53,154 nt of DNA, taken from assembly GCF_031085175.1 (NCBI RefSeq), contig NZ_JAVHUY010000063.1, forward strand, positions 1 through 53,154, given 5' to 3'. Numbering within the stretch: the stretch's first letter is position 1; each line of letters begins with the position of its first letter. This DNA comes from Phytohabitans maris (GTDB taxonomy: Bacteria; Actinomycetota; Actinomycetes; Mycobacteriales; Micromonosporaceae). Positions 25,854-52,389 of the stretch are shown piece by piece. The position numbers and the translations under genes were made by a program. The notes below the pieces were generated by a model. The model was not told where the DNA came from and did not search any database. It saw only the letters and a program-made list of their open reading frames with translations.

Positions 25854-26963
25854 CTACGCCGGGACGAGCACCGTACGGCCGGGCACCCCGTCCCGTAGGT
25901 CCCGCAGCGCGAGGTTCACCTCGCTCATCGGGCGGGTCCGGGTGACCAGCTCGTCGAGCTTGAACCGTCCGGCCAGGTACAGCTCCACGATGCGCGGGAA
26001 GTCCTGCCAGGGCCGGGCCCAGGCCATCCCCCCGCGGGTGACGGACTTGGTGATGGACGCGGGGTAGCTGACCTCACTGCCGGGCGGGGCGAGGCCGACG
26101 ATGGTCAGCTGGCCGCCGTTCGCCGTCGCGTCGAAGGCTTGCCGGATCGTCACGGGCGTGGAGACCGCCTCGAACCCGAAGTCGACGCCCCGGCCACCGG
26201 TCAGCGACAGCACCTGCGCCACCCAGTCCGGCGCCGAGGCGTCGACGGTGTGCGTCGCGCCGAACAGCTCCGCCGTGGCCAGCTTCGCCGCCCCGATGTC
26301 GACCGCGATGATCGTCGTCGCGGCGGCCAGAAACGCCGACTGGATGACGTTCAGACCCACGCCGCCCGCGCCGACGACGAGGACGGAGGCACCCGGATGC
26401 ACCTTCGCCACGTTGAAGACGGCGCTGTAGCCGGTGGTGACGCCGCAGCCGATCAGGCAGGCCCGGTCGAGCGGCATGTCCGCACGGACCTTCACGCAGC
26501 CGCTCTCCGGTACCACGATGGCGTCGGCGAACGACGAGCAGTACGCCATGTGGTGGACCGCCCGCCCGTCCACGGAGAACCTGGTGGTGCCGTCGGCCAG
26601 GTAGCCCTGGTGCAGCTCGGCACAGCGCGCCGGCCGGCCGGAGCGGCAGGTCGGGCAGCGGCCACAGCCCGGGTAGATGTTGATGATCACGTGGTCGCCG
26701 GGGGCCACCGCCCGGACGTCGGAGCCGACCCGCTCGACGACGCCCGCGGCCTCGTGGCCCGGGATGATCGGCAACGGCGGCCGCCGCGCGCCGTGCGGGC
26801 CGGGAATCTCCAGGCTTCCGTCGACCAGGTGCAGGTCGGACCCGCACAGTCCGCTCGCCGCGACCCGCACCACCACCTCGTCCGCCCGGGGTGCGTCGAG
26901 TGAGACCGTCACCAGCTCCAGCGGACCGGGCGGGGCGTACAGCACCGCGGCCTGGATCTCCAC
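25854..26963 (-). CDS. Zinc-dependent alcohol dehydrogenase (MDR family)
   Basis: A 369-residue medium-chain dehydrogenase. Catalytic zinc residues are in GLCGSDLHLVDG and PGHEAAG; the structural zinc loop is YPGCGRCPTCRSGRPARC; the NAD fold has VLVVGAGGVGLNVIQ. It starts at GTG 26963 with GGGAGG 5 bases upstream. It is the last gene of the long minus-strand operon that begins with the second Liv importer, 39 bp after a CoA ligase, so it probably oxidises a pathway alcohol to a ketone or aldehyde. It is convergent with the thiolase gene, with 16 bp between stops. Confidence 0.92.
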   Translation of the reverse strand: MEIQAAVLYAPPGPLELVTVSLDAPRADEVVVRVAASGLCGSDLHLVDGSLEIPGPHGARRPPLPIIPGHEAAGVVERVGSDVRAVAPGDHVIINIYPGCGRCPTCRSGRPARCAELHQGYLADGTTRFSVDGRAVHHMAYCSSFADAIVVPESGCVKVRADMPLDRACLIGCGVTTGYSAVFNVAKVHPGASVLVVGAGGVGLNVIQSAFLAAATTIIAVDIGAAKLATAELFGATHTVDASAPDWVAQVLSLTGGRGVDFGFEAVSTPVTIRQAFDATANGGQLTIVGLAPPGSEVSYPASITKSVTRGGMAWARPWQDFPRIVELYLAGRFKLDELVTRTRPMSEVNLALRDLRDGVPGRTVLVPA

Positions 26964-27002
26964 CTACGCCTCCCATCGCCAGGATCTACATGAGACTGTG
27001 GC

Positions 27003-28628
27003 TCACCGCGAAGGCGGCCTTCGAGCACCTGGCCGGCTGAGCGTCGGCATCTCCACGTCACGGTCCCAGTCCCGCCGGGTATCCGTATTGGCGCGCAGCG
27101 TGTGTTTCTGGATCTTGCCGGTCGGCGTCTTCGGCATCTCCGCGAGAACCTCCACGAACCGCGGCAGCATGAACCGCGGCATCTGCTCGCCGACCAGGAA
27201 GTCCAACAGGCCCCGCGGGTCGACCGCCTGCCCGGGCTTGGCCACCACGCACACCTTCACCTCGTCCTCGCTCCACTCCGAGGGGGCCGGGATGGCGGCG
27301 CACTCCAGGACGGGTTCGTACCGCAGCACGTACGCCTCCACCTCCGTGGAGGAGATGTTTTCGCCACGGCGGCGGATGCTGTCGCGCACCCGGTCGACGA
27401 AGTAGTACTCGCCGTCCGCGTCCCGCCGGAACCCGTCGCCGGTGTGGAACCACAGGTTGCGCCATGCCCGCACGGTGGCTTCCGGGGCGCCGAAGTACCC
27501 GGTGAACGTGGTCCACGGCACGGTGGGCCGGACCACGAGCTCCCCCACCTGGCCGACCGGCACCTCTCGGTCCAGCGCGTCGACGATGCGCAGCTCGAAC
27601 TCGGGGAACGGCCTGCCGCACGCCGCCGGATCCCGCGGCGACAGCTCGGTGCGGCTCACCACGCCGAGCTCGGTCATGCCGTAGACGCTGTAGGCCCGAA
27701 GGCCGAAGCGCCGCTCGAAGTCCTCGAGATTCTTGAGCAAAGGCACCATCGACGCTATCCGCAACGGGTTGTCCGCGTCGTCCGGCGCCGGCTCCTGGCG
27801 GTAGACGAAGTTGGCCGTCGCCCCGAGGAAATGCGTCACCGTGCAGCCGTACTCGCGGATCTCGCGCCAGAACGAGCTGGTCGAGAACGTCTCCCGCAGC
27901 ACCACCCGGGCCCCGGCGCGGGCTATGCCGTGCGTCCAGAACGTCCCCGCGATGTGAAACAGCGGGTACGGCAGGTAGAGCGCGTCGTCCTTCGTCAGCA
28001 GATCGTCCGGCGGCGAGACGTGGTCCGCGCCGTTCGCGTACATCTGCCAGGTGAGCATCGCGGCCTTGGCCACACCGACGGTACCCGACGTGTAGACCAC
28101 CATGGCGAGGTCGTGCGGCCGCGGGCCGTCCAGCGGCTCGATCTCGTCGACGCCGTCGACCAGCGCCTGACCGTCCACAAAGGTCAGTGTGGCCGCTGGC
28201 GGGGGTTCGAACGGACCGCCGACCGTGATGATCGTCTTCAGCCGGCTGAGCCGGTCGGCGACGTCGAGCACGGCCGGGATCCAACGGACGTGACAGACCA
28301 GCAGCTCCGCCTGAGCGTTCTCCAGGGTCGCCGCCAGGATCGAGCCGCGGAACTCGGTGTTCACCGGGACATCGGTCGCTCTCAGCCAGCCGAGGCCGAT
28401 CCAGATGTTGACGCTTTCCACGCAGGTGGGCGTAAACCGTGACACCCGGTCGCCCGCCTTCACCCCGAGCGAGCGGAACGCCATCGCCCACCGCGTCGCG
28501 CGGTCGTGGGTTTCCGCGTAGGTCTGTGCCCCGCCGCCGACCTCCTGGACGAAGACGCGCTCGCCGTGCTCGCCTGCGTGGCCCGCGACGACCTGCGGGA
28601 GGAGCGCTGCCGGTCCCTGGTGGTTCAC
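27003..28628 (-). CDS. AMP-forming acyl-CoA synthetase
   Basis: A 541-residue ANL-superfamily ligase that would activate a carboxylic acid with ATP and CoA. The AMP-binding P-loop is YTSGTVGVAKAAMLTW, the A5-type motif YGMTELGVVSRTEL, the hinge region RVRDSIRRRGENIS and the A10 lysine PKTPTGKIQKHTL. The start GTG overlaps the AKR stop by 4 bp (GTGA) and has GAGGAGG just upstream. The hinge motif RRRGENIS resembles crotonobetaine/carnitine-CoA ligases. The substrate is presumably an acid made by the neighbouring oxidoreductases. Confidence 0.9.
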   Translation of the reverse strand: MNHQGPAALLPQVVAGHAGEHGERVFVQEVGGGAQTYAETHDRATRWAMAFRSLGVKAGDRVSRFTPTCVESVNIWIGLGWLRATDVPVNTEFRGSILAATLENAQAELLVCHVRWIPAVLDVADRLSRLKTIITVGGPFEPPPAATLTFVDGQALVDGVDEIEPLDGPRPHDLAMVVYTSGTVGVAKAAMLTWQMYANGADHVSPPDDLLTKDDALYLPYPLFHIAGTFWTHGIARAGARVVLRETFSTSSFWREIREYGCTVTHFLGATANFVYRQEPAPDDADNPLRIASMVPLLKNLEDFERRFGLRAYSVYGMTELGVVSRTELSPRDPAACGRPFPEFELRIVDALDREVPVGQVGELVVRPTVPWTTFTGYFGAPEATVRAWRNLWFHTGDGFRRDADGEYYFVDRVRDSIRRRGENISSTEVEAYVLRYEPVLECAAIPAPSEWSEDEVKVCVVAKPGQAVDPRGLLDFLVGEQMPRFMLPRFVEVLAEMPKTPTGKIQKHTLRANTDTRRDWDRDVEMPTLSRPGARRPPSR

Positions 28629-29665
28629 GTTTCCTCCTCGTCCCGCCGCCACCGGGAAGTCCGATCCGGCCGGGGAATGGCGTCCAGCAGGTCCATCGGC
28701 GGCACGTCGTCGGCCAGCGCTCCGATCGCGGCCAGGCCGGCATCGTCCAGCACGACGTCCAAGCAGCCCAGGTTCTCCAGGAGCTGTTTCTGGCTCTGGA
28801 CCCCGAACACCGGAACGACACACGGCGCCACCTGCCGGATCCAGGCAAGCGCCACCTGGCTGGCGCGGAGACCGTACCCGGACGCGAGATCCCGGAATCG
28901 GCCGGCGAAAGCGAACCGCGCGCCCCAGTGCCCATCGTTGAACCAGGGCGTGTACCGCCGGTAGTCACCCTCGGGAAGGTCGGCCGGCGCCGGCGGATGG
29001 TCGGTGAGGAAGCCCTGGGCGAGCGGCGCCCACGCCATGCCGGCGATCCCGAGCCGGTCGCAGGTGGCCGCGATGGATCCGCCGGGTTCCCGGGCCAGGA
29101 CGCTGAACGGGAACTGAGCCACGCTCAGCTTGGCCCGGCCGGCGAACGCGGTGAGCTCGGCCGGCGTGACGTTGGAGACGCCGATGGCCCGCGCTCGTCC
29201 ACTGTCGACCAGCCCGGTGAGCGCGGCCGCCGTCTCGTCCAATCCGGTCGACGGATCGGGAAAGTGCAGCATCACCACGTCGACGTGGTCCGTGCCGAGC
29301 GTACGCAGGGTCCCGTCCAGGCTCTCCCGGAGGAAGCCCGCACTGGCATCGCGGACCCGACGGCTGGCGGCGGAGTCGTCGTGGCGGAGGCCGACCTTCG
29401 CACAGAGGACGATCTCGTCCCGCCGCCCCCGCAGGATGTCCCGCATGGCCTCGGCGAAGGCGGCATCCGCCCGGCCGTTGCCGTACGACGCGGCACCGTC
29501 GAAAAAGGTTATCCCCCGGTCGAACGCCGCACGGACAGCGTCCTTCGCCGCGTCCGTGTCCGGACCCCAGTCGCCCCCCAACTGGTGCGTTCCCACGCAC
29601 AGCGCAGACACGCTGAGACCGGATTCGCCGAGCGGGACCCTCTGCGACACATACTCCCGCGCCAT
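28625..29665 (-). CDS. Aldo/keto reductase
   Basis: A 346-residue NADP-dependent aldo/keto reductase. The catalytic tetrad appears in order: Asp and Tyr in TFFDGAASYGNG, Lys in VLCAKVGL, His in VVMLHFPDP. Cofactor residues lie in AIGVSN and near VPVFGVQSQKQL. The family resembles L-fucose/D-threo-aldose and short-chain carbonyl reductases. It starts at ATG 29665, one base after the SDR stop. In this operon it could reduce or oxidise a cyclic alcohol/ketone pair. Confidence 0.9.
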   Translation of the reverse strand: MAREYVSQRVPLGESGLSVSALCVGTHQLGGDWGPDTDAAKDAVRAAFDRGITFFDGAASYGNGRADAAFAEAMRDILRGRRDEIVLCAKVGLRHDDSAASRRVRDASAGFLRESLDGTLRTLGTDHVDVVMLHFPDPSTGLDETAAALTGLVDSGRARAIGVSNVTPAELTAFAGRAKLSVAQFPFSVLAREPGGSIAATCDRLGIAGMAWAPLAQGFLTDHPPAPADLPEGDYRRYTPWFNDGHWGARFAFAGRFRDLASGYGLRASQVALAWIRQVAPCVVPVFGVQSQKQLLENLGCLDVVLDDAGLAAIGALADDVPPMDLLDAIPRPDRTSRWRRDEEET

Positions 29666-29666
29666 G

Positions 29667-30431
29667 TCAGAACGCCGAGATTCCGCCGTTGACGCTGATC
29701 GACTGCCCGGTGATCCGGGCGGCGTCAGCACTGGCCAGAAACACGATCAGGCCGGCCAGGTCATCGGGCTCCGCGACGCCCAGGTGGGCGGCGGCCATCG
29801 CCTTCTGGAAGAGCTTGGCGCTGAACGGCTGCGCCATCGTGCGGTCGTAGCCGCCGGTATCGCGGATGAGCGACGGCGTGACGGCGTTGACCCGGATGTT
29901 GTCCCGCTTCGCCTCCATGGCCAGAGTCCGGGAGAACATGGTGATGGCGGCCATGGCAGCGCCGATGACGGCTTCGCCGGGTGTCGGGACCTTGGCGGCG
30001 TCCGAAGCGACATTGATGATCACCCCGCCACCGCCGCTCCGCATCGACGGCAGGACCGCGCGGCACAGATGCAGCACCCCGACAAGTTGCGCGCTGACCC
30101 CGTCGCGGAGGTTTTCGATCGGGTACTCGTGAAAAAGCGCCGGCACCGACGGTCCACTGATCGTGTTGACGAGCACGTCGACCGTACCGAACTCCTCGAC
30201 CGCCCGGCGGGCCACGGCCAGCGCCCCGGCGGGCTCGTTGAGGTCGGCGCGGACGAAGCGGGGCCGCGCGTCGGGGTAGGCCGCGGCGATGCGGTCCACG
30301 GCCCGCCGTCCTCTCTGCTCGTCACGGCCGGCGAGCACGAACCGCCGCGTACCGGCGGCCGCGAACCGCAGCGCGGCGCGGATGGCGACCTCGGACGTTC
30401 CGCCGCCGAGCACGACGCAGGCGTCACTCAC
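29667..30431 (-). CDS. Degenerate SDR-family protein lacking catalytic Tyr and Lys
   Basis: An SDR-fold protein of 254 residues (GTG 30431) or 267 (ATG 30470). The fold is recognisable: a glycine-rich turn (VVLGGGTSEVAIRAAL), DVLVNTISG in place of NNAG, INVASDAAK, RVNAVTPSLIRDTGG and ITGQSISVNGG. The active-site YxxxK is replaced by IGAAM (Tyr to Ile, Lys to Met), and the cofactor turn departs from TGxxxGIG. It is unlikely to be an ordinary reductase; it may bind a ligand or act in another chemistry. I prefer the GTG since it overlaps the upstream ATPase gene by only 8 bp; the ATG would overlap by 47 but has GAGGAGG 12 bases off. Confidence 0.8.
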   Translation of the reverse strand: MSDACVVLGGGTSEVAIRAALRFAAAGTRRFVLAGRDEQRGRRAVDRIAAAYPDARPRFVRADLNEPAGALAVARRAVEEFGTVDVLVNTISGPSVPALFHEYPIENLRDGVSAQLVGVLHLCRAVLPSMRSGGGGVIINVASDAAKVPTPGEAVIGAAMAAITMFSRTLAMEAKRDNIRVNAVTPSLIRDTGGYDRTMAQPFSAKLFQKAMAAAHLGVAEPDDLAGLIVFLASADAARITGQSISVNGGISAF

Positions 30432-31272
30432 CGGCTTGGCGGGTCTGCTGGGTGGATTGGGCAAGCTCATGCTCGGGTGCGTCCTCCTCGGTGGACTGGA
30501 ACTCAGCGCCCAGGTACGCCTCGATGACCAAGGGGTCGTTGCGCACCTCGCCCGGCGTGCCGTGGGCTATCTTGCGGCCGAAGTCCAGTACGACGATCTC
30601 CTCGGCAAGGCCCATGATGACGTTCATGTCGTGCTCGACCATCAGCACGTTCACGTCGTGGTCGTCGACGTAGCGCAGCACCAGGTCGGACAGCTCGGCC
30701 TTCTCCCGGCTGTCCATGCCGGCCATCGGCTCGTCCAGCAGCAACAGCTTGGGGTCCTGCACCAGAGCGCGGGCGAGCTCGACCTTCTTGCGGACGCCGT
30801 ACGGCAGCGAGCGCACCTCCTCGTACCGCAGCGGGGCGAGCCCGCAGTCCTCCAGGATCCCGCCGACGTACTCGCGCTGCTCCCGCTCCTCCCGGCGGGC
30901 CCGGGGTCCGCGCAGCATCCCCGCGAGCATCCCGGTCCGGGTGTGCTGGTACCGCCCGAGGAGCACATTCTCCTCCACTGTGGACTCGGGCAGCAGCGCG
31001 AGGTTCTGGAAGGTGCGGGCGATCCCCTGCCGGGCGATCTGGTGCGGTCGCTGGCCGAGCAGGCTGCGGCCGCCGCACGTGACGGTGCCCCGGGTCGGTC
31101 GCTGCACCCCCGTGATGCAGTTGAACAGCGTCGACTTGCCCGCGCCGTTGGGACCGATGACCGCCGCTATCCGCCGGGCCGACAGCGTGAAGGAGACATC
31201 GTTGAGGGCGTGGACGCCGCCGAACGTCACGGTCAGGTTCTCCACGGCGAGGATCCGGCTGTCGGCGGCCAT
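30424..31272 (-). CDS. LivG-type ABC transporter ATP-binding protein
   Basis: A 282-residue ATPase of the second Liv-family importer. Walker A GPNGAGKST, LPYGVRKKVELARAL in the signature position and KLLLLDEPMAGMD for Walker B. The signature is degenerate (PYGVRKK rather than SGGQ), as is common in LivG. The LivG-type ending VIEAYLGAEF is followed by a ~25-residue acidic/Gln tail. Start ATG overlaps the LivF stop (ATGA). Confidence 0.92.
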   Translation of the reverse strand: MAADSRILAVENLTVTFGGVHALNDVSFTLSARRIAAVIGPNGAGKSTLFNCITGVQRPTRGTVTCGGRSLLGQRPHQIARQGIARTFQNLALLPESTVEENVLLGRYQHTRTGMLAGMLRGPRARREEREQREYVGGILEDCGLAPLRYEEVRSLPYGVRKKVELARALVQDPKLLLLDEPMAGMDSREKAELSDLVLRYVDDHDVNVLMVEHDMNVIMGLAEEIVVLDFGRKIAHGTPGEVRNDPLVIEAYLGAEFQSTEEDAPEHELAQSTQQTRQAGE

Positions 31273-32060
31273 CAGCCGACCTCCGTCCGGCGGGCATCGG
31301 CCGGGACAGCCTGGCCGCCGCCGAGGTACCGGCTCTCGACCTCGGGATCGTGCAGCAGCGCGTCGCTGTCGCCGGAGTACGCGATGCGGCCGTTCTCGAG
31401 CACGTAGGCGTAGTCGGAGAACTTGAGCGCGAGCCGGGCATTCTGCTCCACCAGCAGGACACCGACGTGGGTGTCGCGGCGCAGCACCTCCAACTGCTCC
31501 ACGATCCAGTAGACCACCTTCGGCGCCAGTCCCAGGGACAGTTCGTCGATCATCAGTACCCGCGGCCCGGTCATCAGCGCCCGGCAGATCGCCAGCATCT
31601 GCTGCTCACCGCCGGACAGCCAGCCACCCTGCATGTCCAGCCGCCCGCGCAGCGCCGGAAACAGGCTCAGCGCCTGTTCGATCCGGTCGCCGGCGCTCCC
31701 CCGCGCGGCACGCGGCACGGCCACCTTGAGGTTTTCCCGGACGGTCAGCTCCGAGAAGATCTTGCGGCCCTCCGGGACGTGGGCGATGCCGGCACGCACC
31801 ACCTCCTGGGGGCTCATCGCGCCGACGTTCCGGCCGTCGAACCGGATGGTGCCCGAGACCGCGCGCCCCCGGTAGAGGTCGAGCACCCGCGAGAGCGCGC
31901 GGATCGTCGTGCTCTTCCCCGCGCCGTTCGGGCCCATGAGCGCGACCCGCTGACCCGGCGCCACCCGCAGCGAGATGCCGTCCAGGGCACGCGCGCCGGA
32001 ATACTCGACCACCAGGTCGGTCACCGTGAGGCCGTCGTCGTCCGTGCTCCGCCCGGCCAT
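31272..32060 (-). CDS. LivF-type ABC transporter ATP-binding protein
   Basis: A 262-residue ATPase partnering the LivG-type protein. Walker A GPNGAGKSTT, signature WLSGGEQQMLAICRAL, Walker B VLMIDELSLGLAPK. In the last of these the usual DEPS is DELS, an uncommon but conservative variant next to the catalytic glutamate. Start ATG overlaps the LivM stop by ATGA, so expression is tightly coupled. Confidence 0.92.
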   Translation of the reverse strand: MAGRSTDDDGLTVTDLVVEYSGARALDGISLRVAPGQRVALMGPNGAGKSTTIRALSRVLDLYRGRAVSGTIRFDGRNVGAMSPQEVVRAGIAHVPEGRKIFSELTVRENLKVAVPRAARGSAGDRIEQALSLFPALRGRLDMQGGWLSGGEQQMLAICRALMTGPRVLMIDELSLGLAPKVVYWIVEQLEVLRRDTHVGVLLVEQNARLALKFSDYAYVLENGRIAYSGDSDALLHDPEVESRYLGGGQAVPADARRTEVG

Positions 32061-33109
32061 CACGCGTCCCGCCCGGCGGGTGCGCGCCGCGGTATCACCA
32101 ACGCCGCCCGGGCCGCGATCATGGACATTTCCGCGAGACCCCCCGGTCGCAGCACGATGATGAGGATGATGGCGAGGCCGAACACGACATTGTTGAAGCC
32201 GTCCTTGTTGTCGTAGAACCAGCCTGACCCGGCCTGGTTCGACAGCGTCTCGATGAGCTTGGGCAACGCCGTCCAGATGGCCACGCCGACCACGGATCCC
32301 GCCACCGTCGAGGAGCCGCCGATCACGATGATCGCGATGAGCTGGATGGCGAGGTCCAGGGTGAACAGGTCGACCGTCGTCGTGGTCAGGTAGTACGCGT
32401 AGAGGATGCCGGCGAGGGTGGTCAGCGCGGAGCTCAGCGCGTACACCTTGACCTTGGTGACGCCGACGTTGATCCCCGCTGCCGCGGCGGCGAACTCCTG
32501 GTCCCGTATGGCCACCAGGACCCGGCCCTGCCGGCCTCGTGAGAGACTGCCGACCGCGTAGACGACCAGGATCGTGATGGCCATCAGCAGGCCGTACCAC
32601 GCGATGTCGGTGTCTATCGGGTACCCGAAGACGCTCACCGGCGGGTAGCCGATCCCGGCGTACCCGAAGGTGTCGGAGTACTCCAGGTACGCGAAGACCG
32701 CGATGAAGTGGAAGGCGAGCGTGGCCAGCAGGGCGTAGAGGCCCTTCAGCGACAGCGACGGCAGCCCGACCACCGCGCCGACGAGCGCGCCGACGGCCAG
32801 GCCCAGGGCGAGGACGGCCAGGAAGGGCAGTTCCAGCCTGGTGCCGAACAGGCCGCCCAACGCCGCGCCGAGAGCGTAGAACCCGGCCGATCCGATGGAG
32901 ATGAGCCCGGCCCGCCCGGTCAGCAGGTGCAGCGCGAGCGCGGCCAGCAGGGTGATGAGCGCGAAGTTGACGTCGAGCAGGGAGATGTGGAGAAACCAGC
33001 CGCCCTGGATGCCCCAGACGCCACCGGCGGCGAGCAGCGGCAGCACCACACCGGCGGCCACCTTCGCGGCCGGCGCGCGCACCCTCGCCACCCAGCGGGA
33101 CGCGGTCAT
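32060..33109 (-). CDS. LivM-type ABC transporter permease
   Basis: A 349-residue permease with about ten hydrophobic helices. HLLTGRAGLISIGSAGFYALGAALGG is the LivM signature region, and IAIIVIGGSSTVAGSVVGVAI the second conserved loop. Unlike the first importer of the window, this one is not fused to an ATPase. Both of its ends overlap neighbours by ATGA. Confidence 0.92.
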   Translation of the reverse strand: MTASRWVARVRAPAAKVAAGVVLPLLAAGGVWGIQGGWFLHISLLDVNFALITLLAALALHLLTGRAGLISIGSAGFYALGAALGGLFGTRLELPFLAVLALGLAVGALVGAVVGLPSLSLKGLYALLATLAFHFIAVFAYLEYSDTFGYAGIGYPPVSVFGYPIDTDIAWYGLLMAITILVVYAVGSLSRGRQGRVLVAIRDQEFAAAAAGINVGVTKVKVYALSSALTTLAGILYAYYLTTTTVDLFTLDLAIQLIAIIVIGGSSTVAGSVVGVAIWTALPKLIETLSNQAGSGWFYDNKDGFNNVVFGLAIILIIVLRPGGLAEMSMIAARAALVIPRRAPAGRDA

Positions 33110-33975: not shown

Positions 33976-34022
33976 CGTGCGCACCTGCCGCTATGTCTGG
34001 CATGAGCTGTCCTTCGTCGATG

Positions 34023-35361: not shown

Positions 35362-35411
35362 GCAGATCTTCGCCTCTCATGTTGCTGTGGCGTGAACCAC
35401 ATGTATCAAGC

Positions 35412-37864: not shown

Positions 37865-37923
37865 ACGCACCCTCCTCGGTCAAGTCCTCACGTGCCCGCG
37901 TCAGCGGTCCTTACCATGACATC

Positions 37924-38012
37924 TATCCGCACAGTATGGCCATATCGTCCCGCTGGTCAACGTCGGTCTTCCTGGTTGCGGGCCGAATCCCTCCGGCAAT
38001 ACTATGCGGATA
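37924..38012. promoter_or_regulatory. Paired inverted 14-bp elements in the divergent crotonase/monooxygenase promoter
   Basis: TATCCGCACAGTAT (37924-37937) and ATACTATGCGGATA (37999-38012) are reverse complements at 13 of 14 positions, 61 bp apart. Read in the direction of each gene, both give ATACTRTGCGGATA and contain a GATAAT/GATAGA -10-like hexamer. They are probably matched promoters or operators for the two divergent genes. Confidence 0.65.
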
Positions 38013-38035
38013 ATCCGTGGAGTTAGGGGTATTGC

Positions 38036-41590: not shown

Positions 41591-41624
41591 CTATACCCTT
41601 ACTATGCATATAGTACGGGTACTA
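41591..41624. promoter_or_regulatory. Two symmetric 14-bp boxes between lactonase and CitE-like genes
   Basis: Box A CTATAC-CC-TTACTA (41591-41604) and box B TAGTAC-GG-GTACTA (41611-41624, a 6-bp palindrome around GG) are inverted relative to each other, centres 20 bp apart. Between them TACTAT and ATAGTA form another dyad around GCAT. A TATAGT -10-like hexamer (41609-41614) points towards the CitE-like gene. A dimeric regulator binding two helical turns apart is a natural reading. Confidence 0.65.
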
Positions 41625-44593: not shown

Positions 44594-44614
44594 TTACGTA
44601 TAGTTAGGGTACTA
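44594..44614 (+). promoter_or_regulatory. Promoter/operator of the GntR gene
   Basis: TTACGTATAGT (44594-44604) contains a TATAGT -10-like hexamer. It overlaps TAGTTA-GG-GTACTA (44601-44614), which matches box B of the lactonase/CitE region at 12 of 14 positions. A small CCTGG-CACA-CCAGG hairpin follows at 44615-44628. This suggests that the GntR protein binds its own promoter. Confidence 0.55.
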
Positions 44615-45433: not shown

Positions 45434-46633
45434 TCAGACGGTGCCCGCGGCGCGCAGCCGGTCCAGCTCCGCCGCGGTCAGGCCGACCAGCTCCCGGTAC
45501 ACGTAGTCGTTGTCCTGCCCCAGGTCGGGCCCGGTCCGCCAGACCCGGCCGGGCCGGTTGGCAAGGCGGGGCACGACACCGTGCATCCGGACGGTGCCCA
45601 GCGTCGGGTCGGTGACCGAGATGACGTCGTCGCGCTCGAGGTAGGTCGGGTCGTCGACGATGTCCGCGACCGAGTAGATGCGGCTGGCGATGACCTCCTG
45701 CCGGGTCATCTCCGCCAGCGTCTGCGCCGCGGTGTGCCCGGCGATCCAGGCGGCCAGCGCCTTGTCCAGCCGGTCCCGTCCGCGCACCAACTGGTCCATC
45801 GTGGCGTACTCGTCGACCGGGAGCCCGACCAGCGCCGCGATGTTGCGCACCGACTTGGGCGTCCCGGACGTCACGATGATCCAGGCACCGTCGCTCGTCC
45901 GATAGGTGTTTATCAGCGCCGACGGCACCGCCTCGACCTGGTTGCCCGCCCGGGTGGGCACGAACCCCAGCTGGTCGTAGAGGATCACCTGCCAGTCGAT
46001 GAGTCGGTAGAGCGACTCGAAGAGAGCGAGGTCGATCCACTCACCGTGGAAGTCGGGCTCGTGCCGGCGGGTCAACGCCGCGCTGATCGCGAACGCCCCC
46101 ATCAGCCCGGTCACCGCGTCGGCCTGGGAGTAGCCGACGGCCAGCGGCGGGCCGTCGGCGTGGCCGGTCAGGTGCAGGGCGCCGCTGCGGGCCTCGCCGA
46201 CCTTGCCGAAGCCCGGTTCGTTGCGCAGCGTCGACGCGGCGCCGTTCGCCGAGATCTGGAGCATCACCAACCGGTCGTTGACGGCGTGCAGGGAGGCCCA
46301 GTCCAGGCCCCACCGCTCCAGGGTCTCCACCCGCATGTTCGTGATCACGACGTCTGACCAGGCGGCCAGCCGGCGCGCGACCCGCTGGCCCTCGGGCGAG
46401 CGCAGGTCGAGCGTGACCGACCGCTTGTTGCGGCCGATCGCGGACCACCAGACGTGCTTGCCGCCCTTGGCCAGGCTGAGCTGACGGGTCGGGTCACCCG
46501 TCCCGGGCGCCTCGACGTGCACCACCGTGGCGCCGAGGTCGGCGAGGAGCCCTCCGGCGACCGGCCCGGCCACGACGTGTGCGAACTCGACGACCTTGAG
46601 CCCCTCGAACACCGGCCCCTCAACCATGTGCAC
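45434..46633 (-). CDS. CaiB/BaiF family CoA-transferase
   Basis: A 399-residue type III CoA-transferase. KVVEFAHVVAGPVAGGLLADLGATVVHVE is the typical opening, and the catalytic aspartate is about Asp172 in SQADAVTGLM. Family III enzymes move CoA between carboxylic acids through an aspartyl-CoA intermediate. It starts at GTG 46633, AAGGA 6 bases upstream; an ATG two codons later is possible. Divergent from the FAH-family hydrolase, and its stop is 7 bp from that of the GntR gene. Confidence 0.93.
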   Translation of the reverse strand: MHMVEGPVFEGLKVVEFAHVVAGPVAGGLLADLGATVVHVEAPGTGDPTRQLSLAKGGKHVWWSAIGRNKRSVTLDLRSPEGQRVARRLAAWSDVVITNMRVETLERWGLDWASLHAVNDRLVMLQISANGAASTLRNEPGFGKVGEARSGALHLTGHADGPPLAVGYSQADAVTGLMGAFAISAALTRRHEPDFHGEWIDLALFESLYRLIDWQVILYDQLGFVPTRAGNQVEAVPSALINTYRTSDGAWIIVTSGTPKSVRNIAALVGLPVDEYATMDQLVRGRDRLDKALAAWIAGHTAAQTLAEMTRQEVIASRIYSVADIVDDPTYLERDDVISVTDPTLGTVRMHGVVPRLANRPGRVWRTGPDLGQDNDYVYRELVGLTAAELDRLRAAGTV

Positions 46634-46660: not shown

Positions 46661-46676
46661 TATAATACATATAGTT
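46661..46676. promoter_or_regulatory. AT-rich promoter element between CoA-transferase and FAH-family genes
   Basis: ATACATATAGTT (46665-46676) is identical to the element before the ACAD gene at 47604-47615. TATAGT (46670-46675) can serve as -10 for the FAH gene, and TATTAT on the other strand as -10 for the transferase gene, so the two promoters overlap. Confidence 0.55.
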
Positions 46677-46693
46677 CTGGCAGAGGGAGGGGT

Positions 46694-47596
46694 ATGAAGC
46701 TCGCACAGCTGCGGACCGAGGGCACGACCGTGGTCGCGGAGGTTCTCGGCGACGTCGCGGAGGTCATCGCCGAGGGCGGCCAAGACCTACTGCTGCGGGT
46801 CGCCGCCCACCCGCACGACATCGACCGGGACGGCACCCGCGTCCCCCTCGACAGCGCCACCGTGCTCACTCCGATCGACCGCCCGCCGTCGATCCGGGAC
46901 TTCTTCGCCTTCGAGCAGCACATGCGCACGTCGCGGGCCAGCGCCGGGCAGGATCCCGATCCCGGCTGGTACGAGCAGCCGTTCTTCTACTTCTCCAACC
47001 CGGCGGCGGTGATCGGGCCGGACGTCCCGATCCGGCCGCCGACCGGGACCCGCGCGCTCGACTACGAGCTGGAGGTCGCCGCCGTGATCGGCCGCGAGTG
47101 CGCCGACCTGGACCCGAGCGACCCGACGAGCATGTCGGCGATCGCCGGGTTCACCATCCTCAACGACTGGTCGGCCCGCGACATCCAGGGCCGAGAGATG
47201 AAACAGCAGCTCGGACCGCAGAAGGCGAAGGACTTCGCGACATCGGTCGGGCCCTGGTTGGTGACCCCGGACGAGATCGCCCTGGCCGACCCCACCCGCC
47301 CGAAGGGGCGCATGCAGGCACGGGTCAACGGCGAGCTGTGGTCCGACGGCGAGCTCGCCGACATCTACTTCTCCTGGTCGCAGCTGCTCGCGCACGCCGC
47401 GGCGGACACCCGACTGCTGCCCGGCGACCTCTTGGGCTCGGGCACGTGTGGCACGGGCTGCATCCTCGAGCTGCGGACCTCCGGCCTGCGCGCCACGCGC
47501 CACTGGCTGCGCCCCGGCGACACCGTCGAGCTGAGCGTCGAAGGGCTGGGCACGCTGAGGAACACCATCGCTCCCCGCGAGTCCGTTGCCATCTAG
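46694..47596 (+). CDS. Fumarylacetoacetate hydrolase family protein
   Basis: A 300-residue FAH-fold enzyme. DYELEVAAVIG supplies the metal-binding glutamates, NDWSARDIQGREM the aspartate, and GSGTCGTGC the C-terminal substrate loop. The family hydrolyses C-C bonds in acylpyruvates and fumarylacetoacetate, or decarboxylates or tautomerises related oxo-acids. Released acetoacetate would fit the nearby acetoacetyl-CoA synthetase. ATG 46694 follows GGGAGGGG. It is the first gene of a plus-strand run that continues to etfB, though with its own promoter. Confidence 0.9.
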   Translation: MKLAQLRTEGTTVVAEVLGDVAEVIAEGGQDLLLRVAAHPHDIDRDGTRVPLDSATVLTPIDRPPSIRDFFAFEQHMRTSRASAGQDPDPGWYEQPFFYFSNPAAVIGPDVPIRPPTGTRALDYELEVAAVIGRECADLDPSDPTSMSAIAGFTILNDWSARDIQGREMKQQLGPQKAKDFATSVGPWLVTPDEIALADPTRPKGRMQARVNGELWSDGELADIYFSWSQLLAHAAADTRLLPGDLLGSGTCGTGCILELRTSGLRATRHWLRPGDTVELSVEGLGTLRNTIAPRESVAI

Positions 47597-47614
47597 TCGG
47601 TTTATACATATAGT
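47586..47614 (+). promoter_or_regulatory. Internal promoter for the ACAD-to-etfB operon
   Basis: TTGCCA (47586-47591), 17 bases, TATAGT (47609-47614) at the very end of the FAH-family gene. The -10 lies within ATACATATAGTT (47604-47615), shared with the FAH promoter. This would drive the six-gene block starting at 47661. Confidence 0.6.
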
Positions 47615-47660
47615 TATCGCAAGACGGCGCCGCCTGGAAAGCAACTCGGCAAAGGAGCAA

Positions 47661-48827
47661 GTGTTGGCCTTCTTCAACTTTCTGACCGCCGAGCAGCAGG
47701 CATGGCGTGAGAGCTGCTACCGCTACATGGAGCGGGAGATCACCCGGGAGTACATCCGCGAGTGCGACATGGCCCGCGAGTACTACTACGAGGGATACCG
47801 GAAGATCGTCGAGCAGGGCTGGCACAGCCTGCTCATCCCGCCCGCGCTCGGCGGCTCCGGCGCCGGCCCGGTCGAGTACGCGCTGATGTGCGAGGCGGGC
47901 GGCCGGTACGGGTACGACTTCGTCGCCGCGGTCGTGGGCACGCCCTCGTTCAACGCCCAAAATCTCATCAAGTTTGGCAACGAAGACCAGCTGGACCGCT
48001 TCATCAAGCCGTACGTGCGCGGGGACATCCGCTTCTCGATCGGCATCTCCGAACCGCAGGCCGGCTCGGACGCCGCGGCCACGGCCACCCGTGCGGTCCG
48101 CGATGGTGATCACTACGTGGTCACCGGTGCCAAACAATGGATCTCCGGTTCCGGCGCGCAGAACGCGGTCATCCTCATGTTGGTGCGGACCGATCCCAGT
48201 GCGCCCAAGCACCAGGGCCTCTCGATGATCCTGATCCCCAACGACCTGCCGGGGATCCAGCTGAACAAGCTCAAGACGCTTGCTCGCCGGGGCATGGGCA
48301 CCTACCAGGTCTTCCTCGACGAGGTCCGGGTGCCCGCGGCCAACCTGCTCGGCGCCGAGGGTCAGGGCTGGGAGATCATCGGCGCCAATCTGGAGTTGGA
48401 ACGGATCGCCTGCGCGGCCGGCTACGTCGGCTGCGCCCAGCAGGCTGTGGACGACGCCCTGCTCTACGCCCACCAGCGCGAGCAGTTCGGCCAGCCCATC
48501 TACCAGTTCCAGGTGATCAAGCATATGCTCGCCGACATGCAGACCGAGGTGGACGCGGCCCGCCTGGTGCTCTACCGGGCGGCGGCGACCGTCGAGGCCG
48601 GCCAGCCGGCCCTCCGCGAGGTCTCCATGGCCAAGCTCCTCGCGTCGGAGACGTTGCAGAAGGTCTCCCGGCAGGGTGTGCAGATCATGGGTGGCCACGG
48701 CATGCTGCCCGAGGCGGACATGGAGCGGTACTTCCGCGAGGGCATGCAGTCCACGATCGGCGGCGGCACCTCGCAGATCCAGCGCTCGATCATCGCCAAG
48801 ACGATGCACAAGGCGCTCATGGCATGA
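47661..48827 (+). CDS. Acyl-CoA dehydrogenase with relocated catalytic base
   Basis: A 388-residue ACAD. FSIGISEPQAGSDAAATATRA, WISGSGAQNAV, REQFGQPIYQFQVIKHMLADM and QIMGGHGMLPEADMERYF are family motifs. The C-terminal motif reads TIGGGTSQIQRSII, so the YEGT glutamate is a glycine. The glutamate in LELERIACAAG matches the alternative base of isovaleryl-CoA and long-chain dehydrogenases, which suggests a branched substrate. GGAG lies 3 bases before GTG 47661 and 6 before TTG 47664; either may be the start. It begins a block of six overlapping genes. Confidence 0.92.
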   Translation: MLAFFNFLTAEQQAWRESCYRYMEREITREYIRECDMAREYYYEGYRKIVEQGWHSLLIPPALGGSGAGPVEYALMCEAGGRYGYDFVAAVVGTPSFNAQNLIKFGNEDQLDRFIKPYVRGDIRFSIGISEPQAGSDAAATATRAVRDGDHYVVTGAKQWISGSGAQNAVILMLVRTDPSAPKHQGLSMILIPNDLPGIQLNKLKTLARRGMGTYQVFLDEVRVPAANLLGAEGQGWEIIGANLELERIACAAGYVGCAQQAVDDALLYAHQREQFGQPIYQFQVIKHMLADMQTEVDAARLVLYRAAATVEAGQPALREVSMAKLLASETLQKVSRQGVQIMGGHGMLPEADMERYFREGMQSTIGGGTSQIQRSIIAKTMHKALMA

Positions 48828-50068
48828 CGGCGCCACCGTTGCAGGGAATCCGGGTGCTCGACTTCACCCGGCACCTCGCCGGGCCGTACGCCACGACGAT
48901 CCTCGGCGACTTCGGTGCCGACGTGATCAAGGTGGAGTCCCGCCCGGATGGCGACCCGACCCGGCACCTACGCATGGGTGTCGAACCGCCCGACGCCGAC
49001 AGCCAGGCGTTCATGAACTACAACCACGGCAAGCGCAGCATCGCCATCGATCTGCGCCGGCCGGACGGCGTGGCGCTGGCGCGGAGGCTGGCCCGCGGGT
49101 GCGACGTGGTCATCGAGAACTACCGCCCGGGCGTGGCCGACGCGATCGGCATCGGCTACGAGGCGCTGAGCGCGGACAACCCCGGCCTGATCTACTGCGC
49201 GCTCTCCGCGTTCGGCCAGAACGGGCCGTGGGCCCGGCAGCCGGCGACGGATCCCGTGGTCCAGGCCATGTCCGGCGTGCTCGAGGTGACCGGTCACGCC
49301 GGTGACCCGGTCCGGGTGGGCGTGCCGATCTCCGACGTGGTCGGGGGCATGGCGAGCGTCCAGGGGATCCTGCTCGCGCTCTACGCGCGCCGCCACACCG
49401 GCGTCGGCCAGCTGGTCGACGTGTCCCTCCTGCACGCGATGATCCTCACCCACACCACCCGACTGGCGGAGTACTTCGCCACCGGTGCGGAGCCGCGCGG
49501 GCAAGGCACGGCACACAGCCTCGTCGCGCCGTACGAGCTGTTCGAGACCGCCGACGGCAAGGTCATCGCCGGCTCCTGGGCCGAGGACACGTGGCCCCGG
49601 TTCTGCCGGGCCATCGGCCGCACCGACCTGACCGAGGACCCCCGGTTCAAGACCAACGTGCTACGTGTCCGCCACCGCGCCGAGCTGGCCGCGATCATCC
49701 AGGCCGAGCTCTCGCAGCGTACGACCGAGCAGTGGCAGGGCAGCTTCCACGAGGCCAACGCGCTGTTCGGTCCGCTGCTGCCGATCTCGCAGGCGATCAC
49801 CCATGCCCAGATGGAGGACCGGCCAGCGGTGGTGCGGATCCCCCATCCGGTGCACGGCACCGTGTCGGTACCCAACCCGGCGTCGGCGGTCCGCCTGCAC
49901 GGGACACCCGGCGGGGTACGCATCGCACCCGCGCTGCTGAGCCAGCACGCGCGGGAGATCCTGCTCGATTTCGGCCTGTCGACGGCGGAGATCGACGCCC
50001 TCGGCCGCGACGGGACGGTCGACCTCGGCCAGGACGAGGTCTCCCACGAGGCGGCCCAGCATGTCTGA
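48824..50068 (+). CDS. CaiB/BaiF family CoA-transferase
   Basis: A 414-residue type III CoA-transferase. IRVLDFTRHLAGPYATTILGDFGADVIKVE opens it, and the catalytic aspartate is about Asp171 in VPISDVVGGM, close to Asp169 of formyl-CoA transferase. GQLVDVSLLHAM is the following conserved helix. Start ATG overlaps the ACAD stop (ATGA). It probably loads CoA on a pathway acid at the expense of another acyl-CoA. Confidence 0.93.
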   Translation: MTAPPLQGIRVLDFTRHLAGPYATTILGDFGADVIKVESRPDGDPTRHLRMGVEPPDADSQAFMNYNHGKRSIAIDLRRPDGVALARRLARGCDVVIENYRPGVADAIGIGYEALSADNPGLIYCALSAFGQNGPWARQPATDPVVQAMSGVLEVTGHAGDPVRVGVPISDVVGGMASVQGILLALYARRHTGVGQLVDVSLLHAMILTHTTRLAEYFATGAEPRGQGTAHSLVAPYELFETADGKVIAGSWAEDTWPRFCRAIGRTDLTEDPRFKTNVLRVRHRAELAAIIQAELSQRTTEQWQGSFHEANALFGPLLPISQAITHAQMEDRPAVVRIPHPVHGTVSVPNPASAVRLHGTPGGVRIAPALLSQHAREILLDFGLSTAEIDALGRDGTVDLGQDEVSHEAAQHV

Positions 50069-50825
50069 CGCCGTGACCTACGAGGTGGCCGACGGCATCG
50101 CGACGATCACCATCAACGAGCCGGAGTCCCGCAACGCGCTCTCGCCCGCGGTCCGGGAGGGGCTACGCGAAGCCTTCCGGCGCCTGAACGACGATCCGCG
50201 GGCCCGCGTCGGCATCCTCACCGGGGCCGGCGACCACGCGTTCTGCGCCGGCGGCGATCTGAACGACATGACCAACTCGACCCTGCGCGCCGTGCCACCC
50301 GACTACATCCCGATCCCGGGGCGCAACATGCGCGTGGACAAGCCGTGGATCGCCGCGGTCAACGGATACGCCGTCGGTGGCGGCGTGCTCTACACCCTCG
50401 TCGCGGACCTGGCGATCGCCGCCGACACGGCCCGGTTCGTCATGCCGGAGGCCAAGGTCGGCCGCGGCGCGCCCTGGTCGGTGGGTCTGATCCACCAGCT
50501 GCCGCGGAAGGTCTGGTTCGAGATGGCGGTCACCGGCGACACGGTCGACGCTCCGCGGGCGAGGGAAATCGGCCTGGTCAACCACGTCGTCCCGGCGGCG
50601 GAGCTGGCTGCCGCCGCGCGGGAGCTGGCGGCCAAGGTGGTGCGCGCCGCTCCCCTCACCGTGTCGGCCACTCTCAAGATGGTGCGGGCCTCGACGGAGA
50701 TGGGCCAGACCGCCGCCTGGGACACCGCCGACGAGATCTTCAGCCATGTGTACGTGAGCGAGGACGCGCTGGAAGGTCCGCGTGCCTGGGTCGAGAAGCG
50801 CCGGCCGGTGTGGAAGGGGCGTTGA
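50061..50825 (+). CDS. Crotonase-family enzyme lacking the first catalytic glutamate
   Basis: A 254-residue enoyl-CoA hydratase/isomerase family member. Oxyanion motifs HAFCAGGDLNDM and NGYAVGGGVLYTL are present. The position of crotonase Glu144 is Leu (GGGVLYTLVAD), while that of Glu164 is kept (VMPEAKVGRG). With one glutamate, isomerase, hydrolase or other enolate chemistry is as likely as hydration. ATG 50061 overlaps the previous gene by 8 bp. The next gene, MaoC-like, could be the hydratase instead. Confidence 0.88.
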   Translation: MSDAVTYEVADGIATITINEPESRNALSPAVREGLREAFRRLNDDPRARVGILTGAGDHAFCAGGDLNDMTNSTLRAVPPDYIPIPGRNMRVDKPWIAAVNGYAVGGGVLYTLVADLAIAADTARFVMPEAKVGRGAPWSVGLIHQLPRKVWFEMAVTGDTVDAPRAREIGLVNHVVPAAELAAAARELAAKVVRAAPLTVSATLKMVRASTEMGQTAAWDTADEIFSHVYVSEDALEGPRAWVEKRRPVWKGR

Positions 50826-51268
50826 TGCAGGTACTGGTGGACGGGTACTTCGACGATCTCGAACCGGGCTACACGACGGGTCCCTCACGCGGGCGCACCA
50901 TCACCGAGACCGACGTCGTGCACTTCATGATGCTCACCGGAAACTGGGCCGAGATCCATTCCAATGTGGAGTTCGTCAAGGGTACGCCGTACCGGCAACG
51001 ACTGGTGCAGGGCAGCCTGGTCCTGGCGATCAGCCAAGGCCTCTTCACCACCGGCCGCGCCGTCGCCGCCTTCTACGGCCTGGACCGGCTGCGCTTTCCC
51101 AAGCCGGTCTTCATCGGCGACACCATCGCGGTGGAGTGCGCGCTCACCGGCAAGAAGGACCGCGACGAGCGCTTCGGCCTGGCGACCTGGCGGATGACGG
51201 TGCGCAACCAGGACGAGGCCACGGTCCAGGTGGCGGACTACACCATGCTCACCTACCGGACGCCATGA
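50825..51268 (+). CDS. MaoC-like hot-dog dehydratase with Asp-to-Asn change
   Basis: A 147-residue hot-dog-fold protein of the MaoC family ((R)-specific enoyl-CoA hydratases and relatives). TETDVVHFMMLTGNWAEIHSN is the active-site region. The catalytic His45 is present, but the aspartate of the usual TGDxNPxH is Asn40. LVQGSLVLAISQGLF is the second family motif. Activity may be altered; Glu43 could take over. It overlaps its neighbours by 1 bp (TGATG) upstream and 4 bp downstream. Confidence 0.85.
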   Translation: MQVLVDGYFDDLEPGYTTGPSRGRTITETDVVHFMMLTGNWAEIHSNVEFVKGTPYRQRLVQGSLVLAISQGLFTTGRAVAAFYGLDRLRFPKPVFIGDTIAVECALTGKKDRDERFGLATWRMTVRNQDEATVQVADYTMLTYRTP

Positions 51269-52389
51269 GCGGCGTCCTCGGCGGTGTCCGGGTGCTCGAG
51301 CTCGGCGGTATCGGCCCCGGCCCGCACGCCGCGATGATGCTCGCCGACCTCGGCGCCGACGTCGTCCGCGTGGAGCCCCCGACACCCGGCGTCCACCTGA
51401 TCCCGCCGGCCGACGACGCCGTGCTGCGCAACCGCCGCTCCATCGCGGTCGACCTCAAGTCGACGCCCGGCCGCGACATGTTTCTGTCCCTTGTGGACCG
51501 GGCCGACGTGTTGCTCGAAGGGTTCCGCCCCGGTGTGGTCGAACGGCTCGGTGTCGGTCCGGCCGAGTGCCTGGCCCGCAACCCCCGGCTCGTCTACGGG
51601 CGGATGACCGGCTGGGGACAGTCCGGACCGTTGGCGCGGCGCGCCGGACACGACATCAACTACCTGGCCCTGACCGGCGCGCTGCACGCGGTCGGGCGAC
51701 CCGGCGCCAAACCCTTTCCGCCGCTCAACCTGGTAGGGGACCTCGGTGGCGGATCGCTGTTTCTCGTCGTCGGCATCCTCGCGGCGCTGTTCGAGCGGGA
51801 ACGCTCCGGCCAGGGCCAGATCGTCGACGCGGCGATGGTCGACGGCGTGAGCACGTTGATGGCGATGTACTGGTCGCTGACCGAGCATCGACTCTGGTCG
51901 GCCGAGCCCGGAACGCACATGACCGATGGTGCGGCGCCCTTCTACAACACCTACGCGTGCGCGGACGGACGCTACGTCGCGGTGGGCGCGGTCGAGCCGC
52001 CGTTCTATCACGCCCTCGTCACCGGGCTCGGCCTGGATCCGGCCGCGCTGCCACCGCAGCTGGACCCCGACTCCTGGCCGGATACGACAAGGCGGTTCGA
52101 GGAGATCTTCGTAACCAGGACCAGAGACGAGTGGGCCGCGCATTTCGCCGATACCGACGCCTGCGTGACTCCCGTGCTGGCGCTGAACGAGGTCGCCGAT
52201 CACCCCCACATCCAAGCGCGCGGGACCGTCGAGACCGTCGACGAGCGGCGTCAACCCGCACCCGCACCACGGTTCTCCCGCCACCGCCCGCCGCCGCTGC
52301 GCGGCCCCCACGTGCCGGGATCCGACCTGGCCGAGGTGCTGCGCGATTGGATCGAACCAGAGACGAACGGTCAGGTGAGGACGGAGTGA
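51265..52389 (+). CDS. Alpha-methylacyl-CoA racemase
   Basis: A 374-residue CaiB-fold protein, but with racemase rather than transferase residues. His129 (GHDINYLA), Asp159 (LVGDLGGGS) and Glu244 (AVEPPFY) match the catalytic His126, Asp156 and Glu241 of the mycobacterial enzyme MCR at a constant offset of three. It inverts the 2-methyl centre of branched acyl-CoAs so that an (S)-specific ACAD can act. Its presence points to a methyl-branched (isoprenoid, terpenoid or sterol-like) substrate. ATG 51265 overlaps the MaoC stop. Confidence 0.92.
   Translation: MSGVLGGVRVLELGGIGPGPHAAMMLADLGADVVRVEPPTPGVHLIPPADDAVLRNRRSIAVDLKSTPGRDMFLSLVDRADVLLEGFRPGVVERLGVGPAECLARNPRLVYGRMTGWGQSGPLARRAGHDINYLALTGALHAVGRPGAKPFPPLNLVGDLGGGSLFLVVGILAALFERERSGQGQIVDAAMVDGVSTLMAMYWSLTEHRLWSAEPGTHMTDGAAPFYNTYACADGRYVAVGAVEPPFYHALVTGLGLDPAALPPQLDPDSWPDTTRRFEEIFVTRTRDEWAAHFADTDACVTPVLALNEVADHPHIQARGTVETVDERRQPAPAPRFSRHRPPPLRGPHVPGSDLAEVLRDWIEPETNGQVRTE

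Follow-up and report, generated by a model that had tools for sequence, protein, structure and literature searches.

A putative co-regulated catabolic cluster in Phytohabitans maris combining a Liv-type importer, a Baeyer-Villiger monooxygenase, a CitE-like lyase and acetoacetyl-CoA synthetase

We analysed a 53,154-nucleotide stretch of the Phytohabitans maris genome (the window), which is one entire contig (C60; NZ_JAVHUY010000063.1 of assembly GCF_031085175.1) of a 9.87-Mb genome in 95 contigs, with about 70% GC. Positions 25854 to 52389, a 26-kilobase block, hold 24 genes that make up a real catabolic cluster, probably under common control, in which known parts are combined in a new way. 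We favour, tentatively, its interpretation as a co-regulated catabolic regulon with a proposed route from import to acetoacetate. Judged from its gene content, the cluster probably imports a branched, ketone-bearing compound, opens it by oxygen insertion and degrades the pieces. The evidence includes a DNA word rare in the genome that precedes five of the gene units, and a CitE-like acyl-CoA lyase that stands beside an acetoacetyl-CoA synthetase (AACS) gene.

A rare word shared by the gaps of the cluster

With at most two mismatches allowed, the AT-rich 12-nt word ATACATATAGTT occurs at 16 places in the genome, five of them in this contig, which makes up 0.54% of the sequence. The only two exact copies in the genome lie in the cluster, before the genes for an FAH-family hydrolase and an acyl-CoA dehydrogenase (ACAD). 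All five contig sites (Table 1) fall in gaps of the cluster, 17 to 59 nt before a start codon, and all point to the next gene. Nine gaps in the cluster are 35 nt or longer, and 5 of them have the word, against none of 64 control gaps taken from this genome. From the remaining 11 places in the genome 0.06 sites per 53 kb are predicted, a contrast that is overstated because the word was chosen from these very sites. Sharing was also tested over eight gaps, leaving out the 39-nt gap at 26964-27002, which has no site, and two gaps on the icmF side. A 12-mer common to five of the eight was reached in none of 200 dinucleotide shuffles; when real gaps of matched length were drawn from twenty 20-kb stretches of this genome, it was reached in 3 of 500 samples. 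Other word settings on shuffles gave P values from 0.005 to 0.32. A window-wide motif scan revealed no site in the icmF or thiolase gaps. The genome-rare word precedes the importer, CitE/AACS, GntR, FAH and ACAD units, which argues for a single regulon, and the view of the first-pass annotation that the block is one catabolic system gains support from the five shared gaps.

The sites before the CitE and GntR genes have a longer string in common, TATAGTWNGGGTACTA, which holds the perfect inverted repeat TAGTACGGGTACTA at 41611-41624. Such a repeat is expected of the operator of an autoregulated GntR protein, and the GntR/FCD regulator encoded in the cluster probably binds at or near the shared word and controls the units.

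The CitE-like lyase and the acyl-CoA genes

The CitE-like lyase belongs to a small separate subfamily. RipC was its best family match and 3qll its best PDB match, and it scored below the NCBIfam cut-offs of both RipC (112 against 375 bits) and CitE (103 against 443). In the available text on Rv2498c, a CitE-like protein of M. tuberculosis, the enzyme is described as an (R)-3-hydroxy-3-methylglutaryl-CoA (HMG-CoA)/(S)-citramalyl-CoA lyase, which splits (R)-HMG-CoA into acetyl-CoA and acetoacetate and also cleaves citramalyl-CoA, with Mg held by Glu112 and Asp138 (PMC6689899). The lyase of the cluster has Glu134 and Asp160 with the same spacing of 26, as judged by pattern and spacing rather than by alignment with Rv2498c. 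Since the CitE and RipC cut-offs are missed and the match to Rv2498c is remote, it is the context that argues for an HMG-type activity. The next gene encodes an AACS that passes its family cut-off, which fits acetoacetate as a product of the lyase; from this pair we infer, in agreement with the first-pass annotation, that degradation would end in acetyl-CoA and acetoacetate.

Relatives of the lyase were few. At 1e-60 none was found among 395 other genomes of the phylum, and at 1e-35 they were present in 4 of 396 other genomes of the order (G100, 53% identical; G118, 46%; G1119, 36%; G892, 35%). In three of these four, an orthologue of the CoA-transferase encoded at 45434-46633 adjoins the lyase or lies one gene off (60% in G100, 55% in G118, 59% in G1119), while no such orthologue stands by the lyase of G892, on a contig of just 12 kb. 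Misses are possible, because the searches for relatives score only some candidates per genome (five for CitE). In G118 the lyase gene shares a tight run with genes for a regulator of the IclR type, a ligase, a protein with a carboxyltransferase domain, a crotonase orthologous to that at 50061-50825 (52%), the CoA-transferase and an ACAD. Within 40 kb, the G100 locus adds a racemase (52%), Liv genes and a GntR gene (41%), and the stretch also has two cytochrome P450 genes and two genes for luciferase-like monooxygenases. Genes for a DNA methylase (N6_Mtase/Eco57I) and a HamA-family protein, which look like defence genes, lie beside the G118 operon (L244:14692-18281).

A carboxylase, a hydratase and a lyase, in this order, catalyse the steps of the 3-methylglutaconyl-CoA/HMG-CoA route in leucine catabolism. 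With moderate confidence we prefer an HMG-type reaction of the lyase to a citramalate-type one, because AACS is the next gene, Rv2498c sets a precedent, the Glu-Asp spacing agrees, and G118 has its carboxyltransferase, crotonase and lyase in one run. The motif, with at most two mismatches, was found at two places in the G100 locus (L242:6288 and L242:15196), one in G1119 (L245:14084) and none in G118, compared with one place in 779 kb of control loci of the Baeyer-Villiger monooxygenase (BVMO). Both G100 places overlap called open reading frames (ORFs), one of them at the 5' end of an ORF; the G1119 place is in a divergent gap that lies upstream of the CitE run. No motif site is present in the 32-nt gap that precedes the G100 CoA-transferase, and a search of the sister loci for the inverted repeat TAGTACNNGTACTA found none. 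The motif in sister clusters is only suggestive.

Three genes of the cluster encode CaiB-family proteins. The product of 51265-52389 fits the alpha-methylacyl-CoA racemase named in the first-pass annotation, scoring 447 bits against racemases such as MCR and 111 bits against the best CoA-transferase. That of 48824-50068 is closest to SUGCT (succinate-hydroxymethylglutarate CoA-transferase; 259 bits), and that of 45434-46633 is a CoA-transferase of unassigned type. The MaoC protein matched PaaZ first and RipB/Ich second.

The monooxygenase, the hydrolase and the layout of the genes

Type I BVMOs carry the fingerprint FxGxxxHxxxW(P/D). The BVMO translation holds FQGRSFHTYHWP, which agrees with it, and matches solved BVMOs over the full length (OTEMO, 567 bits; PAMO, 511; steroid monooxygenase, 484; also cyclohexanone monooxygenase), as had been proposed for this gene. 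Its closeness to OTEMO is one of rank and not of orthology, because the same genome has a paralogue that is 50% identical. The neighbourhoods of 10 close BVMO loci (53% or more; 12 initially, with two short contigs left out, as was L178) were compared with those of 42 others for 12 gene classes by tblastn at 1e-10, an insensitive measure that missed the annotated CoA ester lyase of a Mycolicibacterium plasmid (L147). ACAD was the best class, in 5 of 10 close and 6 of 42 other loci (p 0.025 uncorrected, two of the close stretches being longer). Plasmid-borne relatives in Skermanella and Haloterrigena have no acyl-CoA genes annotated nearby. Since the neighbourhoods of close relatives are mixed, we discarded the BVMO as a guide to the substrate. 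The closest BVMO among the matches found (64.6%) is on a plasmid of Rhodococcus ruber YC-YT1 (L142), where its neighbours include ligases, thiolases, a gene of the cyclase family and two genes with the annotation acyclic terpene utilization AtuA family.

The phosphotriesterase (PTE)-family protein matched two solved structures best, 4if2 (phosphotriesterase homology protein; 282 bits) and then 4rdy (196 bits). The metal ligands of phosphotriesterase-like lactonases are HxH, Lys, His, His and Asp; the corresponding H22, H24, K144, H176, H205 and D266 were invariant in 13 aligned sequences, and the protein is a putative lactonase. A single-sequence scan of genome contigs found no relative, while an alignment scan found at least 597 stretches, at least 557 of which encode one; outside its own genome, relatives were at most 47% identical among 121 genomes. 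We inspected the neighbourhoods of the best 80 of these at least 557 relatives (at most 48% identical, some loci short). Neither CitE nor AACS was detected in any of the 80; three had a weak BVMO match (30-33%), and 45 had an AMP-ligase no more than 2.5 kb from the PTE gene. The loci are not independent because many are mycobacterial. A ligase near PTE genes would suit a sequence in which hydrolysis gives a hydroxy acid that is then activated with CoA. On two contigs (L043, L055) of an Actinomycetes metagenome-assembled genome, ZJ5.bin57, a PTE-family gene, an AMP-ligase and a BVMO-like gene (30-33%) are found inside a stretch of roughly 6 kb, which makes a small counterpart to the BVMO/PTE pairing.

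Gene calls drew on Pfam/NCBIfam scans together with codon-position composition and the listed ORFs. The scans found every gene family that had been named for the block (Table 1). Adjacent genes overlap on the minus strand at 37070/37073, 33106/33109, 32060/32063, 31272, 30424/30470, 28625/28628 and 40594/40597, and on the plus strand at 48824/48827, 50061/50068, 50825, 51265/51268 and 52386/52389. The description as one contiguous block stands for the gene set and fails for a single operon, since the BVMO gene, PTE/SDR (short-chain dehydrogenase/reductase), CitE/AACS/GntR, one CoA-transferase gene and the run from FAH to racemase are separate divergent or convergent units. Likewise, the binding protein does not head its operon: it is third in the minus-strand run, after the crotonase (37070-37870) and ligase (35475-37073) genes, although the 113-nt gap upstream may give it a transcript of its own. 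The importer, ligases and oxidoreductases of this run fit uptake and activation of a substrate.

Table 1. Predicted genes and motif sites of the cluster and the adjoining etfB
Feature	Position	Strand	Basis
Zinc-type alcohol dehydrogenase	25854-26963	-	Pfam ADH_N, ADH_zinc_N
Acyl-CoA ligase	27003-28628	-	Best NCBIfam match PRK06155, under cut-off
Aldo-keto reductase	28625-29665	-	Pfam/NCBIfam scan
SDR	29667-30470	-	Pfam/NCBIfam scan
LivG-type ATPase	30424-31272	-	Pfam/NCBIfam scan
LivF-type ATPase	31272-32063	-	C-terminal part of ORF 31272-33254
LivM-type permease	32060-33109	-	Pfam/NCBIfam scan
LivH-type permease	33106-33984	-	Pfam/NCBIfam scan
Liv-type substrate-binding protein	34069-35361	-	Peripla_BP_6
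Motif site ATACATGTGGTT (2 mismatches), before binding protein	35395-35406	-	
Acyl-CoA ligase	35475-37073	-	Pfam/NCBIfam scans
Crotonase-fold enoyl-CoA hydratase/isomerase	37070-37870	-	Family scan, similarity search
Weak motif-like site before BVMO, 11/14 to ACTATGCATATAGT	38001-38014	+	
Type I BVMO	38036-39649	+	Nearest solved relative OTEMO
SDR	39653-40597	-	Best NCBIfam match PRK07791, under cut-off
PTE-family hydrolase, putative lactonase	40594-41574	-	Family scan, structure match, metal-ligand alignment
Motif site ATGCATATAGTA, PTE/CitE gap; overlaps inverted repeat TAGTACGGGTACTA (41611-41624)	41604-41615	+	
CitE-like acyl-CoA lyase, small separate subfamily	41658-42560	+	Family scans, PDB match, relatives
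AACS	42596-44572	+	TIGR01217, 764.7 bits (cut-off 520.9)
Motif site TTACGTATAGTT, before GntR; overlaps TAGTTAGGGTACTA (44601-44614)	44594-44605	+	
GntR/FCD transcription regulator	44665-45426	+	Pfam/NCBIfam scans
CaiB-family (class III) CoA-transferase, repeatedly found near the CitE-like lyase in related loci	45434-46633	-	
Motif site ATACATATAGTT, exact, before FAH gene	46665-46676	+	
FAH-family hydrolase	46694-47596	+	Family scan, similarity search
Motif site ATACATATAGTT, exact, before ACAD gene	47604-47615	+	
ACAD	47661-48827	+	Family scans, similarity search
CaiB-family CoA-transferase	48824-50068	+	Nearest solved relative SUGCT
Crotonase-fold enoyl-CoA hydratase	50061-50825	+	Family scan, similarity search
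MaoC-type hydratase	50825-51268	+	Pfam/NCBIfam scan
Alpha-methylacyl-CoA racemase	51265-52389	+	Similarity search
etfB, cut at contig end	52386-53154	+	ORF listing, nucleotide copies elsewhere in genome

The block does run straight into etfB, as had been noted, the start of which overlaps the racemase gene by 4 nt. At the ends of other contigs there are near-identical copies of etfB (C42, 99.87% over 768 nt; C86, 98.1% over 592 nt), which is probably why this contig ends within etfB; a further copy, on C89, is 85% identical. A different set of catabolic genes, in genome G002, likewise ends in an etfB copy (L133). Near the opposite end of the window (4-2067) is a gene for an iron-sulfur CCG-domain protein, perhaps an EtfD-like electron acceptor, so that both contig ends may hold genes linked to the electron transfer flavoprotein (ETF). 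The left half of the window also has a second Liv-type importer (binding protein, ATPases and permease; 9454-14316) without a motif site, and marR, icmF, ACAD and thiolase genes at 19610-25837. The idea that isobutyryl-CoA from the cluster feeds icmF was not borne out: icmF and marR are present in two of five other genomes of the genus, where the cluster is absent, and the icmF gaps are without a site. In those two genomes the neighbouring ACAD and thiolase genes were not detected; in G004 icmF is fragmented, with an internal stop.

The proposed route, its rivals and known systems

We infer each reaction, the order of the reactions and the substrate from the gene content; the lactonase activity and the cyclic, terpenoid- or steroid-like ketone suggested in the first-pass annotation are hypothetical. 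In the regulon that we favour, the Liv-type importer would bring in a branched substrate that already carries oxygen, a carboxylic acid or a small ketone or alcohol being the likeliest; this is suggested because no P450 or ring hydroxylase was found among the window ORFs scanned. The alcohol dehydrogenase, aldo-keto reductase and an SDR would adjust alcohol and ketone groups, and the ligases would form CoA thioesters. The OTEMO-like BVMO would insert oxygen next to the ketone, the PTE-family enzyme would hydrolyse the resulting lactone or ester, and the second SDR would oxidise the hydroxyl. Racemase, ACAD, crotonase and MaoC proteins would process the methyl-branched acyl-CoA, passing the electrons of the ACAD to the adjoining ETF, while the SUGCT-like and second CoA-transferases would activate a short dicarboxylate set free en route. 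The CitE-like lyase would then split a 3-hydroxy-3-methyl-dicarboxyl-CoA (HMG-CoA or a homologue) into acetyl-CoA and acetoacetate, and AACS would activate the acetoacetate. The GntR/FCD protein would govern the units through the shared word.

A more specific version, possible but doubtful, is a new regulon devoted to an alicyclic, methyl-branched ketone or keto acid, with CoA-linked ring opening, an HMG-CoA-type lyase of the CitE subfamily with a class III CoA-transferase, and recovery of acetoacetate by AACS. The lyase/CoA-transferase pair would then be a conserved module with varying front ends, a carboxyltransferase in G118, P450s in G100 and the BVMO in the window. If true, this would provide a complete pathway, open to testing, that leads a class of ketones from uptake to central metabolites, make the small CitE subfamily with its recurrent partner a candidate HMG-CoA-type lyase, and offer the DNA word as a handle for testing the regulon. 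The later steps of camphor degradation are called poorly characterised in the accessible text of one report (PMC6027186).

Several observations weigh against the regulon and its route. The motif was spotted by eye and tested afterwards, and weaker settings gave P values of 0.32 (8-mer, one mismatch, shuffles) and 0.084 (10-mer, one mismatch, real gaps). The word includes TATAGT and may represent a -10 promoter element rather than an operator; the importer site is the least promoter-like, and the BVMO gap has the weak site alone. The lyase lies far under the CitE and RipC cut-offs, and Rv2498c (6aq4) ranks only eighth among its PDB matches, at 56 bits. AACS stands beside the lyase in the window only, none having been detected in the G100, G118 and G1119 stretches, and the NCBIfam match of the G118 carboxyltransferase is a methylmalonyl-CoA decarboxylase model (387 against 999 bits), which assigns no substrate. 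After correction, none of the 12 gene classes differed between the 10 close and 42 other BVMO loci; PTE was found in none of the 52 by tblastn at 1e-10, and some close BVMO relatives adjoin peptide-type or MFS transporter genes.

The block could instead be a patchwork of two or three unrelated catabolic operons (importer/ligase, BVMO/PTE and branched dicarboxylate) lying side by side with no common substrate. The whole set was found at no other locus searched, the Liv/BVMO/SDR half and the CitE/CoA-transferase half recur separately, the units are divergent and convergent, and the left half of the window adds a second Liv importer and another ACAD. Yet the same genome-rare word precedes the importer, CitE/AACS, GntR, FAH and ACAD units, and we consider a patchwork unlikely, if by no means negligible. 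Rather improbable is an end of the itaconate/mesaconate/citramalate type, in which a SUGCT-like transferase, a hydratase and a citramalyl-CoA lyase would yield acetyl-CoA and pyruvate, AACS taking acetoacetate from elsewhere, e.g. from the FAH-family hydrolase. The RipC and 3qll matches of the lyase and the second-ranked RipB/Ich match of the MaoC protein point this way, Rv2498c performs both reactions (PMC6689899), and SUGCT is discussed as a former of itaconyl-CoA in the available part of another report (PMC12460153); against them stand the AACS gene directly after the lyase, the pairing in G118 with a carboxyltransferase and a crotonase orthologue in the style of the HMG-CoA route, and the low RipC and CitE scores. 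That the BVMO serves a natural-product or detoxification function outside the acyl-CoA pathway seems very improbable. Its relatives occur in many settings, its best NCBIfam match is a pentalenolactone BVMO model (285 against 1100 bits) and its gap has no more than the weak site, but the gene has the importer/ligase unit on one side and the PTE/CitE units on the other, and OTEMO, its nearest solved relative, forms a CoA-ester lactone in camphor breakdown according to the accessible text (PMC6027186).

The first-pass annotation had made conservation of the full gene set a test of the system. Modules recur, whereas the whole set was found at no other locus in the searches made. The binding protein (1e-60) and the CoA-transferase of 48824-50068 (1e-100) had counterparts in none of 120 other genomes. 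Among the matches listed, the best identities on plasmids were 35% for CitE, 43% for the CoA-transferase, 65% for the BVMO, 46% for PTE and 48% for the ligase of 35475-37073, the neighbourhoods of which on two plasmids contain no similar gene set. A literature search, mainly at the level of titles and abstracts, found no description of such a cluster. The individual parts are known families; the gene combination, the regulon word and the pairing of CitE subfamily and CoA-transferase appear undescribed within these searches.

The leucine/acyclic terpene (Liu/Atu) route uses a biotin-dependent acyl-CoA carboxylase. No carboxyl transferase domain was found among the window ORFs scanned, while the G118 relative has one. 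When Pseudomonas putida degrades camphor by way of its CAM plasmid (OTEMO, camG), a methylated alicyclic ketone is opened by a CoA-ester-linked BVMO, and the text available reports isobutyryl-CoA downstream (PMC6027186). Unlike that system, with its P450 and diketocamphane monooxygenase genes, the window has no P450 or luciferase-like family among the ORFs scanned, and the cluster has in addition an importer, a PTE-family hydrolase, a CitE-like lyase and AACS. With Rv2498c the lyase shares the CitE-like family and equally spaced Glu/Asp ligands as given in the accessible account (PMC6689899), and differs in its low overall similarity. The BVMOs of Roseovarius indicus, Roseomonas marmotae and Methylobacterium currus plasmids (58, 47 and 46%) lie near a complete Liv importer and an SDR, in stretches with no annotated CoA ester lyase, acetoacetyl-CoA synthetase or phosphotriesterase. 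The Mycolicibacterium madagascariense plasmid pJCM13574 (L147) has, in a 21.6-kb stretch with no Liv importer, PTE or AACS annotated, a BVMO (47%), CoA-transferases, MaoC, ACADs, a ligase, an SDR, a crotonase and a CoA ester lyase that is 30% identical to that of the cluster and closer to RipC, though its 150 bits again miss the cut-off of 375. The G100, G118 and G1119 stretches, in which no BVMO, PTE or AACS match was found, resemble the cluster in combining the same lyase subfamily with the orthologous CoA-transferase.

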